This document shows, piece after piece, positions 10,201 through 15,334 of a stretch of 45,797 nt of DNA. Both the position numbers and the translations under genes were made by a program. The stretch covers positions 1 to 45,797 of the forward strand of contig JAJYCL010000024.1 in NCBI GenBank assembly GCA_021778415.1. The letters are read 5' to 3'. This stretch comes from a bacterium (GTDB lineage Bacteria; Vulcanimicrobiota; Vulcanimicrobiia; Vulcanimicrobiales; Vulcanimicrobiaceae). The notes under the pieces are model-generated. The model searched no databases and was not told the DNA's origin. It was given only the letters and a program-made list of their open reading frames with translations. Position 1 is the stretch's first letter, and the number at the start of each line of letters is the position of its first letter.

Positions 10201-10644
10201 TTATGGCGCTCCGGTCGGTGGTGCGACCGGTGCATTTTGCATGACGGTTCCGGGAAGCGGGACTTGTGCCGGAAGAATCACGCTGCGCATGACCGATTTC
10301 GACGCTCCATCGCGTGCATACGACGCGATGAGCGTGATCGTCTCAGAACCATCCGTTGCAGGGGCGATCGAGAGACGCAGGTCGACGGGTATCGGCGAAC
10401 GCATCGGGACAGGGACACTCGTTGCAATCGAGGTTGGTGGGATTGCATTCCCGGCGTATTTGAGCGCATCTGCAAGGCGAGTCTGTTCGTTGTCGAGCAG
10501 ACTCTGCACGGCAGCATCCGTGCTATTCGGGAGTGCTTTGGCTACGCCGAGCGACGTCGGGCCGATAAGGCAGGCGAGTATGACGGCAAAAATTGCCGTC
10601 GCAAGCAGCGTATCGAGAAGCATAGCGCCGGATTGTCGATGCAC
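10201..10644 (-). CDS. Type IV pilin-like (pseudopilin) protein
   Basis: A 147-residue protein starting HRQSG-AMLLDTLLATAIFAVILA after the initiator. This is a short basic leader, a Gly, then a hydrophobic helix with a Thr-Leu-Leu pattern, as in prepilin peptidase substrates. The usual Glu at mature position 5 is replaced by Asp. The rest has a helical spine and a beta-rich tail ending in APVAPPTGAP. The GTG start at 10644 was chosen because it gives the short leader and lies two bases after the acyltransferase stop. Longer in-frame starts would run into that gene. It is probably a minor pilin of a type IV pilus, type II secretion or competence-like machine. Confidence 0.65.
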   Translation of the reverse strand: MHRQSGAMLLDTLLATAIFAVILACLIGPTSLGVAKALPNSTDAAVQSLLDNEQTRLADALKYAGNAIPPTSIATSVPVPMRSPIPVDLRLSIAPATDGSETITLIASYARDGASKSVMRSVILPAQVPLPGTVMQNAPVAPPTGAP

Positions 10645-10646
10645 AT

Positions 10647-11810
10647 TTACGTCGTATCCCCGGATGCCGCTTTCTCGGACTTCCCGAAGCGTACGTGCAG
10701 CAGCGGGCGTTCGACGAGATACGTAAAGAGCGCGGCTTGGGCGATGGTTATGCCGATGGCAATCAGCGTGTATTCGACTTTCCACGTCGGATCAAAATGC
10801 GGATCTCCGTAAAACGGGGGAATCTTCCATGTGAGCAGTTCGCGGGCGATCATTTGATGATAGAGATAGAGATTATAGGAAATGAAACCGAACCACATGA
10901 GTAGACGGTTTGCAAATATTGCTCTCCACCACGAGAATGCGCCAAGCGATCCGAACGCGATGCATGCAAAGACGATGCCCATCAGCGGGCGTTTATCGAT
11001 TTGCCACACATACGCCCATTGATCGGCAAGGCGAAAGCCGAACAGCGACTGCATAATGAGAATGAGTCCGAAAACACCCGCGATTGCTAGGAGCGTGTGG
11101 GCCAGTAACCGTCGTGGCGATTCTGTCGCGTTGCGAGTGCGAGCGTAGGCCCACGCCGTAAGCATGCCGCAGGCGAAGATGTCCAGGTATCCGGGAAGAT
11201 TTTCGTAGACTTGGACATACCAGCCGTTGTAGCAGCATGCCGTTGCATAGTGACGCCAAGCGAGTGCAATCAGTACCATTACGCCGGCGACGAGCCATGG
11301 TTGGCGACGAAATCCCCACCAAATGAGCGGAAAGCAAAGATAAAATTCGACTTCGATCGCTAGTGTCCAAAGGACGCCGTTAATGGCTCCCGCCGTCTCC
11401 GGCCACCAGGTATGGACGAAGAAGAGATGCGCGACAATATCGGCGAGCGGTGCATGGCCCTGTGTTTGTGCGTAGCCGATGGCGTAGGCGATGATGATCG
11501 AAAGCCAATACGACGGGAGTATTTTGATCGCACGACGCCAGTAGAAGTGCCGCCAACTGGGCGGCTCCGTTCGATCGATAAGCGCACGTACGAACGGCCA
11601 CGTAATCACAAAGCCGGAAAGAAAGAAGAAGAGGTGGACCCCGATAAAACCGGTTTCCGGGAGAAATTCAATTTGCGGCCAGGGTGCGGGCAACCAAGAA
11701 ATTTCCCATACGTGGTACCAAAGCACAAGGAGCACGGCAATACCGCGCAACCCGTCAAGTACATCGAGTCGTCCTTGCTTCACTCCCGGGAAAGTTATCC
11801 CGAACGGCAT
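10647..11810 (-). CDS. Acyltransferase family 3 (OafA/YrhL-like) membrane protein
   Basis: A 387-residue integral membrane acyltransferase with about ten helices. Hallmarks are LDVLDGLRGIAVLLVLWYH near residue 15 with the conserved His, GVHLFFFLSGFVITWPF, and the FYWRRAIKILPSYW segment. Such enzymes transfer acetyl or other acyl groups to cell-surface sugars, peptidoglycan or lipids. It is the first gene of a minus-strand unit with two pseudopilin-like genes. The ATG at 11810 lies 36 bases from the promoter of the divergent membrane-protein/YtrA operon. The acceptor is unknown. Confidence 0.9.
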   Translation of the reverse strand: MPFGITFPGVKQGRLDVLDGLRGIAVLLVLWYHVWEISWLPAPWPQIEFLPETGFIGVHLFFFLSGFVITWPFVRALIDRTEPPSWRHFYWRRAIKILPSYWLSIIIAYAIGYAQTQGHAPLADIVAHLFFVHTWWPETAGAINGVLWTLAIEVEFYLCFPLIWWGFRRQPWLVAGVMVLIALAWRHYATACCYNGWYVQVYENLPGYLDIFACGMLTAWAYARTRNATESPRRLLAHTLLAIAGVFGLILIMQSLFGFRLADQWAYVWQIDKRPLMGIVFACIAFGSLGAFSWWRAIFANRLLMWFGFISYNLYLYHQMIARELLTWKIPPFYGDPHFDPTWKVEYTLIAIGITIAQAALFTYLVERPLLHVRFGKSEKAASGDTT

Positions 11811-11845
11811 TGCATTACTGCCGAGAACGTGTTTGTATTAAGGAG

Positions 11846-11875
11846 TTGACACAATGCGCGCGTTTGTGTTATTGT
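11846..11875 (+). promoter_or_regulatory. Promoter of the membrane-protein/YtrA/hydrolase operon
   Basis: TTGACA at 11846-11851 is followed after 18 bp by TATTGT at 11870-11875, with an extended -10 TG at 11867-11868. Transcription should begin near 11882, only a few bases before the first start codon at 11885. The mRNA would then be leaderless or nearly so. The -10 overlaps the palindrome at 11871-11886. Confidence 0.7.
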
Positions 11876-11886
11876 ACTAATACAAT
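11871..11886. promoter_or_regulatory. Probable operator of the YtrA-type repressor
   Basis: A perfect inverted repeat, ATTGTA-CTAA-TACAAT, overlaps the -10 element and the first start codon. GntR regulators of the YtrA subfamily typically bind short palindromes of the TGTA..TACA kind over their own promoters. A YtrA-type gene is third in this operon (13542-13925). Autorepression is the obvious reading but is inferred. Confidence 0.7.
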
Positions 11887-12727
11887 GAGTATGCAGCTAT
11901 TCGATCGCGACTTTTTCACTGGTTTTTTTATCCTCTATGGCCTGTACATGGCCGTTCGGCCCGTGTGCTTCGCTCAAGTTTGTCCGCTATTTTCGGGTAT
12001 CGTCGTTCCGGATCATGAGCTTGCTATGAGGCTACGTTCCGCTCAATTGCGTCGCAAAGAAGCGGAAGGCATTCCGCTTCGGCTGGGGTGGGCGGTCGCT
12101 CTCGTTGCGTTTCTATGCGCGGGGCTGAGTTGGTTTACGAGCGTTCCGCAGCAACTATGGTATGCGCTGCTCTGTGTTTGTATTGCGGGTTCGTTTGGGA
12201 TTGCGTATTTAAGCATACGATCGGCGACGAAAAAACGGAGCGCTATTTTACATCAACGATCTATTGGAGCACCCATTTGGGTCTTTATCGTGGCGGTCTT
12301 GAGCGCGCTCTCGTTGTTTGTCTATGCAGACAACGCAAAACTGGCCTTTGCCGTGAGTCTGGTTGCCGCATCGTGTATTTTTACCAGCTTTTTAGCATGG
12401 CGAGTGGCAACGATGCCGGCTCTCTTAACCGGTCAAGACAATGTTGTCGAGGTATTTGTTGATGATCGCCTTCGTCGAGTTCGAGCAGGAGCGGTCGTAA
12501 CGTTTGCGGTGGTTCCGCAATTTGTCTATGCGAGTTTTTCCGGATGGCAGACGAGCGAAATCCATGGTATCGCTTGGGTAGTAACCCTCATTTCCTGGGT
12601 CGCGGTTTCTCTCCAAATTTTGATAAGCCGACGTCGCTCACCAAATAGACTTGAAATTGCAACCTGGCGCAATGCTAGTCCCGAGCATTTGGTGACGACA
12701 ACCTCTTCAGGTGGCGCTCAATGTTGA
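11885..12727 (+). CDS. Membrane protein, first of a paralogous pair
   Basis: About 280 residues with seven or so hydrophobic helices. Near residue 200 it has VVEVFVDDRLRRVRAG followed by a helix. The next gene has the matching VVERMVDDRVRGGRAK at the same relative place, so the two look like diverged copies. The family is not recognised. The start at 11885 fits the promoter position and implies an almost leaderless transcript. ATG at 11891 is the alternative. The frame is open further upstream but overlaps the promoter and is rejected. It ends in a 7-bp overlap with the second copy, and the YtrA regulator and hydrolase follow. A role in sensing or resisting envelope stress is inference from that context. 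Confidence 0.78.
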   Translation: MSMQLFDRDFFTGFFILYGLYMAVRPVCFAQVCPLFSGIVVPDHELAMRLRSAQLRRKEAEGIPLRLGWAVALVAFLCAGLSWFTSVPQQLWYALLCVCIAGSFGIAYLSIRSATKKRSAILHQRSIGAPIWVFIVAVLSALSLFVYADNAKLAFAVSLVAASCIFTSFLAWRVATMPALLTGQDNVVEVFVDDRLRRVRAGAVVTFAVVPQFVYASFSGWQTSEIHGIAWVVTLISWVAVSLQILISRRRSPNRLEIATWRNASPEHLVTTTSSGGAQC

Positions 12728-13545
12728 TAGCATGGCATGGGCTTCCCATTTCGACTATTTTCGCGGTGATGTTGCTTGTCGTGGCGGTCATCATCCTCGC
12801 CTTTCCACAGCGATTTGTTGGGAACGCGCGATGCTTTCTCTCCGTCGGGCCACGGTGTACGAAAGATCTGCAGGCGAGGCTTCTCGCGGCAATGGATCGG
12901 TACGACTCCGAAAGTACGCCAGCCGAACAGTATGCATACGTGTTAGCCGGTATTCTTGGACTACTCGCGGCATTATCGTTTTGGCGGGTCCTAAACCCAC
13001 AGTTAGCCGTGGTCCTCGCAGTTCTTGCATCAGCTGCTGTGCAGGCCTGGGCCTTGCTTTTGACGCGTCGTGAACCAGCGAAGCGCTTGGCCTTGCTCTT
13101 TCAACGTCCCCTTTTCACACGCGTAAGCACTGGCGATATGCTTGCGGGGCTGCTGATGATCATACTATGGACGGCATGGGATTTTATCGTACTTCCAAAC
13201 TCACGAGGTTGGTTGTCCGTCAACACGCTCATAGCGCTGATGTTTTTCTTATTTTCTATCGTTGGCGCTTCGGCTGGGAGCGCAATCGGCTCAACGGATC
13301 CCGTTGTCGAACGAATGGTCGATGATAGGGTGCGCGGCGGTCGGGCAAAAATGCTCATAACGATTGCGGTTTTCTTGGCACTAGCACCGCAAATGATCTC
13401 AGGGTCCGTAAACGTTATGCCATTGTTCGAGCGAGGGCTTTTTACGATTGCCATGATCGCTACGATCGCTGTAGGTTTTCGGTCGGCGTCTCCGATTTCT
13501 CAACGCGATATCGAAATGCTATCGATATCGTCCTTGCCATCGTGA
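12721..13545 (+). CDS. Membrane protein, second of a paralogous pair
   Basis: A 274-residue protein with about seven hydrophobic helices. It has the same layout as the preceding protein: a first helix, a cytoplasmic charged stretch, paired helices, then the VVERMVDDRVRGGRAK motif before the last helices. The conserved DDR sits in a short loop and is a candidate functional site. Start and stop overlap both neighbours (7 bp upstream, 4 bp GTGA downstream). This points to equal expression of the two copies and possibly a heterodimer. I know of no described family that I can assign. Confidence 0.78.
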   Translation: MLIAWHGLPISTIFAVMLLVVAVIILAFPQRFVGNARCFLSVGPRCTKDLQARLLAAMDRYDSESTPAEQYAYVLAGILGLLAALSFWRVLNPQLAVVLAVLASAAVQAWALLLTRREPAKRLALLFQRPLFTRVSTGDMLAGLLMIILWTAWDFIVLPNSRGWLSVNTLIALMFFLFSIVGASAGSAIGSTDPVVERMVDDRVRGGRAKMLITIAVFLALAPQMISGSVNVMPLFERGLFTIAMIATIAVGFRSASPISQRDIEMLSISSLPS

Positions 13546-13925
13546 ATCCGGTCTTTCTTGCCGTCGATCTTTCTCTGGATGCGGCTCCGTATTCGCAGAT
13601 CGTTGAGCAGATTCGTGGATTTATCGAGCGCGGGGATCTGCAGCCCGATGATGCGCTGCCTACCGTGCGTCAGCTGGCCGGTGATCTAGGCGTTGCTCCT
13701 AACACGGTGGCACGTGCCTATACGGAACTTGGCGAAGGTGGTTGGATTACGAGCGACGGGCGGCGTGGAACGCGCGTTGCTTCGCAAACGCCTGCCACCG
13801 ATAAGCGCGCGCGGTCGCGCGCCTTGCACGAAGCCGTTTCGCAATTTCTTTCTTCCCTCACTCATCGTGGCTATTCGACGGACGAAGTCGTCGCCGAACT
13901 GCGCCGCGTGAAAGGACTCTCATGA
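13542..13925 (+). CDS. GntR-family transcriptional regulator, YtrA subfamily
   Basis: A 127-residue protein. The N-terminal winged helix-turn-helix of GntR type (about residues 12-80) shows YSQIVEQIRGFIERGDLQPDDALPTVRQLAGDLGVAPNTVARAY and the GWITSDGRRGTRV wing. A short C-terminal helical tail of about 45 residues follows and there is no large ligand domain, which defines the YtrA subgroup. Such repressors often govern membrane export systems induced by cell-wall-active compounds. Start (GTGA) and stop (ATGA) each overlap the neighbours by four bases. The palindrome at 11871-11886 is its likely target. Confidence 0.9.
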   Translation: MNPVFLAVDLSLDAAPYSQIVEQIRGFIERGDLQPDDALPTVRQLAGDLGVAPNTVARAYTELGEGGWITSDGRRGTRVASQTPATDKRARSRALHEAVSQFLSSLTHRGYSTDEVVAELRRVKGLS

Positions 13926-15334
13926 TTATTCGCATCTTGGCAGCCCTACTCGCACTCTTTATTAGCGCTCCGATGATGGCATCGGCTGAATCGATCTCCG
14001 CAATTATCGCGAGTTCCGGCGAGACTGCCCTAAAGACAGGAGTTGCGCCAGGTATTGCTATCGCGGTCGTTCGCAACGGGACAATTATTGCAGCGCAAGG
14101 TTTCGGGTACGCGAATATCACGACAAAACGAGCGGTGACTCCCGACACGCGATTTGCTATCGGCTCGCTGACAAAGCAGTTCACTGCAGCAGCCATCATG
14201 TTGCTGGTGAACGATGGGAAGCTTCGATTAGACGATACGCTGGCTGCCTATTTTCCAGCGTTGCCTAACGCGAAAACGATCACACTGCAAATGTTACTGA
14301 ACCAAACGTCGGGCTTACACACCTATCCGCTCCTTTCCGAACATCCGTGGCCGCTAAAAGGCTCTATCGCAACATCAACGATTCTCTCATACCTCGCAAG
14401 CGACCATCCGGATTTTTTGCCTGGAACGAAATGGGCCTACAGTAACGCGAATTATGCGGTCCTCGCCGCGATCATTGAAAAAGCGAGCGGCGAATCGTAC
14501 GGCACGTTCTTGCAACGACACATTTTTAGGCCGCTCGGTATGGCCAAGAGCGGCTACGGATTCCTCGCGCAAACAAGCGCACCGATTGCCGTTGGCTACG
14601 AGAAGGGGCAAGCTGAAAGTCCGGCATTGAGCTTGGACCTGTTGAGCGGTGCCGGCGGCATCGTCTCTTCGGTGAATGATCTTGCGCGTTGGGATAGCGC
14701 ATTGATGGGGAACACGCTGCTCACGAAGGCCGATCGTCACGCCATGTGGGCAGCCGGTGAACTCCCTGATGGGGCAAAAATTCCCTACGCCATGGGCTGG
14801 ATTCCAACCCAGATCGCCGGACATCGCGAGGTATGGCATAACGGGCTTGCGCCCGGTGTCGGCGGCTATTGCTATAACGCGATTTTCCCCGACGATAACG
14901 TGGCCATTGTCGTCTTGACGAATGGCTTTGCAGCCGGCGGTATTCCCGAACGGATTGTCGCAAACGTGGCCGCGTCGCTTGGAATCGGTCAACTTCCCAG
15001 CGATACGAAACCGCAATCCGCCCCTGGAGACGACCCGAACATCGATGCGCTTGCGCAAAAATTCTGGAGCCAACTTGCGAGCAACACCGTCGACTCGTCG
15101 TTGCTCGAGGCAAAGTTTGCCGATGCGCTCACGCCGTCGCTTCGCAGCGAAACCGCGCAAGGAATCACGATCATGGGGCCCGTGAAATCGTGGACGTTCG
15201 TTGGAAAGAGTAGGCTCGGCGAGGGTCTTCTGGCGTATCGCTATCATCTAATCTTCGTCAGCGGTCAAACGCACGATTGGGCGATCGTCATCGATCACGC
15301 GGGGAAAATTGCCGGTTCGCGCCTGGTACAATAG
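13922..15334 (+). CDS. Serine hydrolase of the beta-lactamase / class C penicillin-binding fold, secreted
   Basis: A 470-residue protein with a signal peptide (residues 1-23, ending near SAPMMASA). The serine beta-lactamase-like domain shows the SxxK catalytic pair in GSLTKQF (Ser82, Lys85), YSN at residues 173-175 and an HNG triad in VWHNGLAPGVGGY near residue 300. About 120 further residues form a small C-terminal domain of the type attached to many of these hydrolases. It may act on D-amino-acid peptides or esters outside the cytoplasm. It is last in the YtrA operon, coupled by an ATGA overlap. True beta-lactamase activity cannot be claimed. Confidence 0.88.
   Translation: MIIRILAALLALFISAPMMASAESISAIIASSGETALKTGVAPGIAIAVVRNGTIIAAQGFGYANITTKRAVTPDTRFAIGSLTKQFTAAAIMLLVNDGKLRLDDTLAAYFPALPNAKTITLQMLLNQTSGLHTYPLLSEHPWPLKGSIATSTILSYLASDHPDFLPGTKWAYSNANYAVLAAIIEKASGESYGTFLQRHIFRPLGMAKSGYGFLAQTSAPIAVGYEKGQAESPALSLDLLSGAGGIVSSVNDLARWDSALMGNTLLTKADRHAMWAAGELPDGAKIPYAMGWIPTQIAGHREVWHNGLAPGVGGYCYNAIFPDDNVAIVVLTNGFAAGGIPERIVANVAASLGIGQLPSDTKPQSAPGDDPNIDALAQKFWSQLASNTVDSSLLEAKFADALTPSLRSETAQGITIMGPVKSWTFVGKSRLGEGLLAYRYHLIFVSGQTHDWAIVIDHAGKIAGSRLVQ

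Follow-up and report, generated by a model that had tools for sequence, protein, structure and literature searches.

The stretch of DNA analyzed here (the window) comprises positions 1 to 45,797 of contig JAJYCL010000024.1 (assembly GCA_021778415.1) from a bacterium of the family Vulcanimicrobiaceae. On its + strand is a compact operon in which genes for two polytopic membrane proteins, which we call M1 and M2, precede those for a small repressor of the YtrA subfamily of GntR regulators and a predicted exported serine hydrolase. M1 (11885–12727, 280 amino acids) was recognized as a seven-helix membrane protein from its translation and its match to a family profile, and M2 (12721–13545, 274 amino acids) is encoded directly behind it. 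The YtrA-type repressor (P0002, hereafter GntR; 13542–13925, 127 amino acids) contains PF00392 (E 5.6e-15), and the hydrolase (13922–15334), which resembles the class C beta-lactamases and DD-peptidases of family S12, contains PF00144. M1 and M2 overlap by 7 bp, and M2 and GntR, like GntR and the hydrolase, by 4 bp, with a single promoter ahead of them all. These reading frames, starts and junctions agree with an earlier model's description of the DNA from its letters alone (the sequence-only reading), which had given overlaps of 4–7 bp. That reading had also proposed that uncharacterized membrane proteins replace the ABC genes usual beside a YtrA repressor, and this too was upheld: M1 and M2 match no Pfam or NCBIfam family, and no ABC Pfam domain was found in M1, M2, the S12 hydrolase or P0004, a further polytopic protein encoded downstream.

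The promoter of the operon is covered by two operator-like inverted repeats. By eye, we read a -35 hexamer (TTGACA, 11846–11851, + strand) and, 18 nt past it, what is probably the -10-like hexamer (TATTGT, 11870–11875, + strand). The first repeat, O1 (11833–11854, + strand), resembles the pattern TTGTATTA-N6-TAATACAA with 2 mismatches (14/16 half-site matches), and its right half includes the -35 hexamer. The second repeat, O2 (11864–11885, + strand), begins 31 bp past O1, departs from the same pattern by 1 mismatch (15/16), and spans the -10 region, its last base being the A of the M1 ATG at 11885. The operator that the sequence-only reading had placed on the -10 and start codon is therefore present at 11864–11885, but the control region is larger than it stated, as O1 had been missed. 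Judged by their sequences, the two 22-bp sites appear to be of the kind that characterizes the YtrA subfamily, a long palindrome with GT and AC far from its center.

For comparison, 47 stretches were fetched in addition to the window, which gives 48 loci in all. Both O1 and O2 are kept in relatives far above the level of shuffled controls: operator scores of at least 12/16 were reached at all 17 loci used for motif discovery and at 24 of 30 further loci, versus 0.6% of Markov-shuffled sequences. The word TTGAC[AG]C was found at 45/48 modules, and a search around the -35 located both operators, each scoring at least 10/16, at 40/48. Among those 40 modules the spacing between O1 and O2 was 31 bp in 29, 30 bp in seven, 34 bp in two, and 29 and 33 bp in one each. 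This pairing is unusual, because the available text of a comparative study gives single sites, along with ABC genes, for most YtrA regulons (PMC4494728). The ATG coincides with the last base of O2 or the base next to it, in frame, in 29/48 modules; with the start codon at the end of O2 there is hardly any room for a leader, which suggests that the module may be transcribed and translated as a leaderless mRNA.

Within the genome of the window (G000), the N6 pattern with at most 3 mismatches occurs at five places: O1 (2 mismatches), O2 (1) and one site each on contigs C21, C44 and C61 (3 each). By number, the 3-mismatch places are at chance level, since the reversed control pattern yields four places in the same genome; those on C21 and C44 each closely precede another YtrA gene. 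The N5 pattern solely found a module on contig C9 (control, 0), which is the second M-GntR pair of this genome (L020) and has operators with 5-bp rather than 6-bp spacers. As sites with at most 2 mismatches were restricted to O1 and O2 of the window (N6) and the C9 copy (N5), the full site marks the two copies of the module. The C21 gene is followed, by eye, by genes for an ABC ATPase and a membrane protein, so an ordinary YtrA-ABC operon is also present in this genome. On C44 (L130, 3039–3891), the YtrA-type gene overlaps, by eye, an HxlR-type regulator gene, and an operator-like inverted repeat lies upstream. The C9 copy is ~1 kb from a gene for an SLT-type lytic transglycosylase (PF01464).

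Candidatus Eremiobacterota, the phylum in which the module is found, is a little-studied group of soil bacteria with few cultured members. Using a 20-member alignment, we detected the M family in 42 of the 117 genomes of the class and 42 of the 149 of the phylum, and in 0/32 outside the class. A contig scan with M1 alone gave no match, and a scan with a seven-member sub-alignment (A2) gave nine loci, six in metagenome-assembled genomes of Candidatus Eremiobacterota and three probably in class members G084, G085 and G086; the absence of M outside the phylum is only weakly tested by this, as the A2 patterns reach only the subgroup of short M proteins. M was present in 47 of the 48 loci, L105 being the exception, and GntR in 44. 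Where M was found without GntR (L099, L102 and L104), the contig ends at most 82 bases from the M reading frame. Two M-like matches were left out of the module count, one in G049 (49 residues with an internal stop; the corresponding locus, L105, has no M open reading frame) and one at G075:C12 (E 6e-5).

A search of the 117 class genomes with a GntR profile (A3) yielded 48 strong matches (E ≤3.2e-51), set apart from 17 weaker ones (E 1e-35 to 1e-25). The association with a membrane protein, for which the sequence-only reading had proposed a neighborhood search, recurs: M lies directly upstream on the same strand for 45 of the 48 strong matches, two others are at contig ends (G025:C197 and G063:C235), and one represents a loss of M. 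None of the 17 weaker YtrA matches has M upstream; one of these, in G103, is a broken GntR gene without M. The M-GntR pair is therefore near-obligate, with M having been lost at least once. The core unit is thus M plus GntR, which is smaller than the four-gene unit claimed earlier, and two membrane proteins are not its rule. Tandem full-length M genes ahead of one GntR occur in only three of the 44 GntR-bearing loci (the window, L024 and L075), a count from which the second M fragment of L089 is excluded. In L024 (G036:C4, 5799–8240) there are three tandem M paralogues before a single GntR.

P0002 is a standard YtrA protein. Its predicted structure (predicted local distance difference test score, pLDDT, 90.1) consists of a winged helix-turn-helix and two C-terminal helices (residues 88–108 and 113–123), which corresponds to the short, ~50-residue, two-helix C-terminal domain by which YtrA proteins are recognized. 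In an alignment with 6sbs_A, which we take to be YtrA_Sa, P0002 is five residues longer in the tail. These extra residues would be in line with the class with a longer alpha4 helix, which binds longer sites according to the available text of the YtrA_Sa study (PMC6746942).

A family profile from which M2 had been left out still matches it (E 1.1e-26), and M1 and M2 are therefore paralogues. No convincing family was found for either in Pfam, NCBIfam, PHROGs or PADLOC. A Pfam search with 20 M members (E 0.1) returned only weak matches to single members, and a sequence search of the PDB with M returned no match. The AlphaFold2 model of M1, built from a 20-row alignment (pLDDT 86.5, predicted template modeling score 0.84), has long helices at residues 2–24, 66–84, 89–116, 131–147, 151–175, 186–219 and 225–250 and an additional helix at 44–61. 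None of the 320 PDB matches that Foldseek gave for the model at E ≤10 reached E ≤0.001, whether to a solved ABC membrane domain or to any other fold. The best VIA-align score was Z 7.0, with talin bundles and G-protein-coupled receptors on top, which is the level common to helical bundles. Two candidate relationships were rejected. The first was membership of the DUF1648/SdpI family: PF07853 was not among the families matched by the 20 members, and hhalign gave a probability of 0.2% against 13 phylum proteins drawn from 20 DUF1648 loci (three without an open reading frame and four in wrong frames were dropped); the fetched stretches of those 20 loci contained no GntR. The second was an internal duplication, as hhalign of the two halves of M aligned just 13 columns.

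The distribution of charge suggests how M lies in the membrane. Averaged over 47 aligned members, Lys+Arg per sequence is 5.8 in loop 1-2, 4.9 in loop 3-4 and 3.4 in loop 5-6, and the loops on the opposite side have 3–5 residues and at most 0.3 Lys+Arg. Under the positive-inside rule, this distribution predicts that the large loops are cytoplasmic and that the N-terminus is outside. Of the 30 positions of M that are most conserved, 17 lie within these three loops, including R118, L122, R125, P178, G183, D185, E189, D193 and R197. The ratio of nonsynonymous to synonymous substitution rates was 0.14–0.36 in eight close pairs, and M is thus a working gene under purifying selection.

The genes behind GntR are far less constant. 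The hydrolase has all of the S12 motifs: the sequence-only reading's Ser82 and Lys85 (SLTK, SxxK) were confirmed, and to them can be added Tyr173 (YSN, YxN), His306 (HNG, HxG) and the PF00144 match itself (E 3.8e-70), which covers residues 38–337 of 470 and leaves ~130 residues beyond it. A signal peptide was read by eye. The best NCBIfam models were D-aminopeptidase and AmpH, with scores below the NCBIfam cut-offs listed, and the class C beta-lactamase cut-off was missed as well (bla_class_C, 103.2 bits vs 415). The claim that the hydrolase completes the unit was not sustained. It is directly 3' of GntR in only 7/44 loci (the window, L034, L087, L088, L089, L090 and L101), all in genera g1 and g24, and for this reason we regard the hydrolase as an occasional passenger, and whatever genes follow GntR as exchangeable cargo. 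S12-like genes (24–31% identical) are on the opposite strand just downstream in L085 and L086, and L085 has another on the same strand. In the genome of the window the hydrolase has seven S12-type matches, six of them off the window's contig. P0004 (15397–16062, + strand), which starts 62 bp past the hydrolase and has no Pfam or NCBIfam family, is possibly a second cargo gene; a similar gene comes immediately after GntR in L024, and others lie farther away on the downstream side in L021 and, separated from GntR by a gap, in L122. In the window, a divergent Acyl_transf_3 gene lies upstream of M1, and rpsL lies with P0004 downstream of the hydrolase. Of the 44 loci, 21 have the acyltransferase upstream and 18 have rpsL downstream, counts that may run low because short contigs hide others. 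The window also encodes, at 10201–10785 on the - strand, a protein with no Pfam match and a hydrophobic stretch that, by eye, resembles that of prepilins.

The gene pairing and the conserved operators on a shared promoter make it highly probable that GntR represses the M-GntR operon and thus itself. Dimers of GntR would bind O1 and O2 on roughly the same face of the helix, as 31 bp is about three turns, blocking both the -35 and the -10/start region and keeping the operon nearly off. We tentatively hypothesize, at somewhat less than even confidence, that the pair works as a whole by M sensing and releasing the repressor by sequestration. The signal would enter via M, which may sense an envelope ligand or the state of the membrane; triggered M would hold the repressor at the membrane, and the promoter would open for production of M, GntR and any cargo behind it, here the S12 hydrolase. 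We propose this link between M and the repressor because M is the sole constant partner, because YtrA proteins almost lack an effector domain, and because M's conserved face is predicted to be cytoplasmic. The pair would then resemble SdpI/SdpR in how it works, though not through homology. That M is the founder of a new family of seven-helix, N-out/C-in receptors without an enzyme domain, which grips a dedicated YtrA repressor and leaves the downstream gene free to be exchanged, is a bolder extension that we consider rather unlikely.

Several observations weigh against the sensing hypothesis. The operator pair was not found at 8/48 modules: no -35-like word lies close to the scanned start in L095, L099 and L101, the last two of which are incomplete M genes, and at least one site scores <10 in L033, L085, the first copy of L091, L094 and L100. 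Operator counts across related genomes are in any case not independent. The repressor can outlive its proposed sensor, as G092:C104 (L122) has lost M and keeps the repressor with a perfect O2 just before GntR. The correlation of M and GntR distances (r 0.71, 0/2000 permutations, 41 loci) is what co-inheritance by itself would be expected to give. The topology of M is a prediction from a model not placed in a membrane, its conserved Asp, Glu and Arg could equally be transport or catalytic residues, and the analysis covered sequences and models.

About as likely as the sensor reading is that M is only an effector produced on demand (a transporter, a channel or a protein that handles lipids), with a small cytoplasmic ligand relieving GntR and M not touching it. 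We hold this possibility, too, at a little under even. It follows the usual logic of YtrA operons, as far as the available text of the comparative study describes it (PMC4494728); D185, E189, D193 and R197, spaced by four, could line a substrate path, and tandem M genes with one GntR (window, L024 and L075) resemble effector dosage. Against it, the modeled GntR tail is just two helices with no obvious pocket. Many of the top-conserved positions of M fall in loops that are predicted to be cytoplasmic, not in the membrane itself, and no transporter family or fold was recognized, though a missing match proves nothing.

A cell-wall antibiotic response, with the S12 hydrolase acting on the drug or on peptidoglycan, would be suggested by analogy with Bacillus subtilis, where the available text of one study has lipid II-cycle inhibitors inducing the YtrA operons and YtrA also controlling ywoBCD, which encodes a membrane protein, a hydrolase and a transporter (PMC12772383). 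The affinity of the hydrolase for the D-aminopeptidase and AmpH models fits this idea. We nonetheless regard it as improbable, given that the hydrolase accompanies so few loci in just two genera and falls far under the NCBIfam beta-lactamase cut-offs listed, and that the B. subtilis study, in the same text, saw no consistent role in antibiotic survival (PMC12772383). More improbable still is that M is harmful when overproduced and that the dual operators keep it silent, making the module an addiction-like or decaying element and not a sensor. Two operators on one promoter, the near-obligate pairing, a lone exception that lost M and kept the repressor, the broken GntR alone left in G103, and the patchy presence in 42/117 class genomes would all fit; the stable place near the acyltransferase (21/44) and rpsL (18/44) instead of in mobile contexts, and the purifying selection on M, do not.

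SdpR is an ArsR-type repressor. In the SdpI/SdpR pair, the polytopic membrane protein SdpI holds SdpR at the membrane, according to the available text (PMC1626106). That pair resembles the present one in combining a membrane protein and an autorepressor in one operon and would share the sequestration logic proposed here, but the repressor here is a GntR, and M has no profile similarity to DUF1648/SdpI. The statement of the sequence-only reading that no described module matches was too strong, as membrane-protein partners of such repressors have been described both in Sulfolobales and, in Streptomyces coelicolor, for the YtrA-type SCO3812 (PMC6746942, available text). In Sulfolobus acidocaldarius, YtrA_Sa with Saci_1850/Saci_2078 is likewise a YtrA-type autorepressor with a membrane protein in its operon (compared by description), a very small regulon and an operator over the transcription start, and the S. 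solfataricus YtrA operon has a second membrane-protein gene, as here (PMC6746942). In the YtrA_Sa system as that text gives it, however, the regulator gene is first, the site has a 14-bp core and alpha4 is short, whereas here GntR follows M and the sites are paired and of 22 bp. The B. subtilis YtrA (ytrGABCDEF, ywoBCD) is also a YtrA-subfamily autorepressor, and ywoBCD also combines a membrane protein and a hydrolase, per the available text (PMC12772383), but the ABC transporter genes are absent from the module here, a separate YtrA gene being beside the ABC-type ATPase gene on C21. The hydrolase shares SxxK, YxN, HxG and PF00144 with AmpH, D-aminopeptidase and class C beta-lactamase, and differs from them in being under the listed NCBIfam cut-offs and in its ~130 residues outside the PF00144 match. 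Among PMC-licensed papers, none was found that combines Eremiobacterota with GntR or DUF1648 with GntR, and none on this module.

Overall, the module is an autoregulated operon of the YtrA subfamily that includes a membrane partner, of a kind that the available text describes in Sulfolobales (PMC6746942). It is set apart by the M family, which is unnamed and absent from Pfam and NCBIfam, by its gene order, by paired operators whose spacing is fixed, and by a start codon lying on the operator edge. This operator and promoter layout is easily recognized, and few members of the phylum have been cultured. The signal input of YtrA repressors, with their very small C-terminal domain, is largely open, and the same text reports no identified ligand (PMC6746942). 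A near-fixed membrane partner with a conserved face that is predicted to be cytoplasmic offers a concrete and testable answer to this question: if it is true, M would supply the missing input of YtrA proteins.

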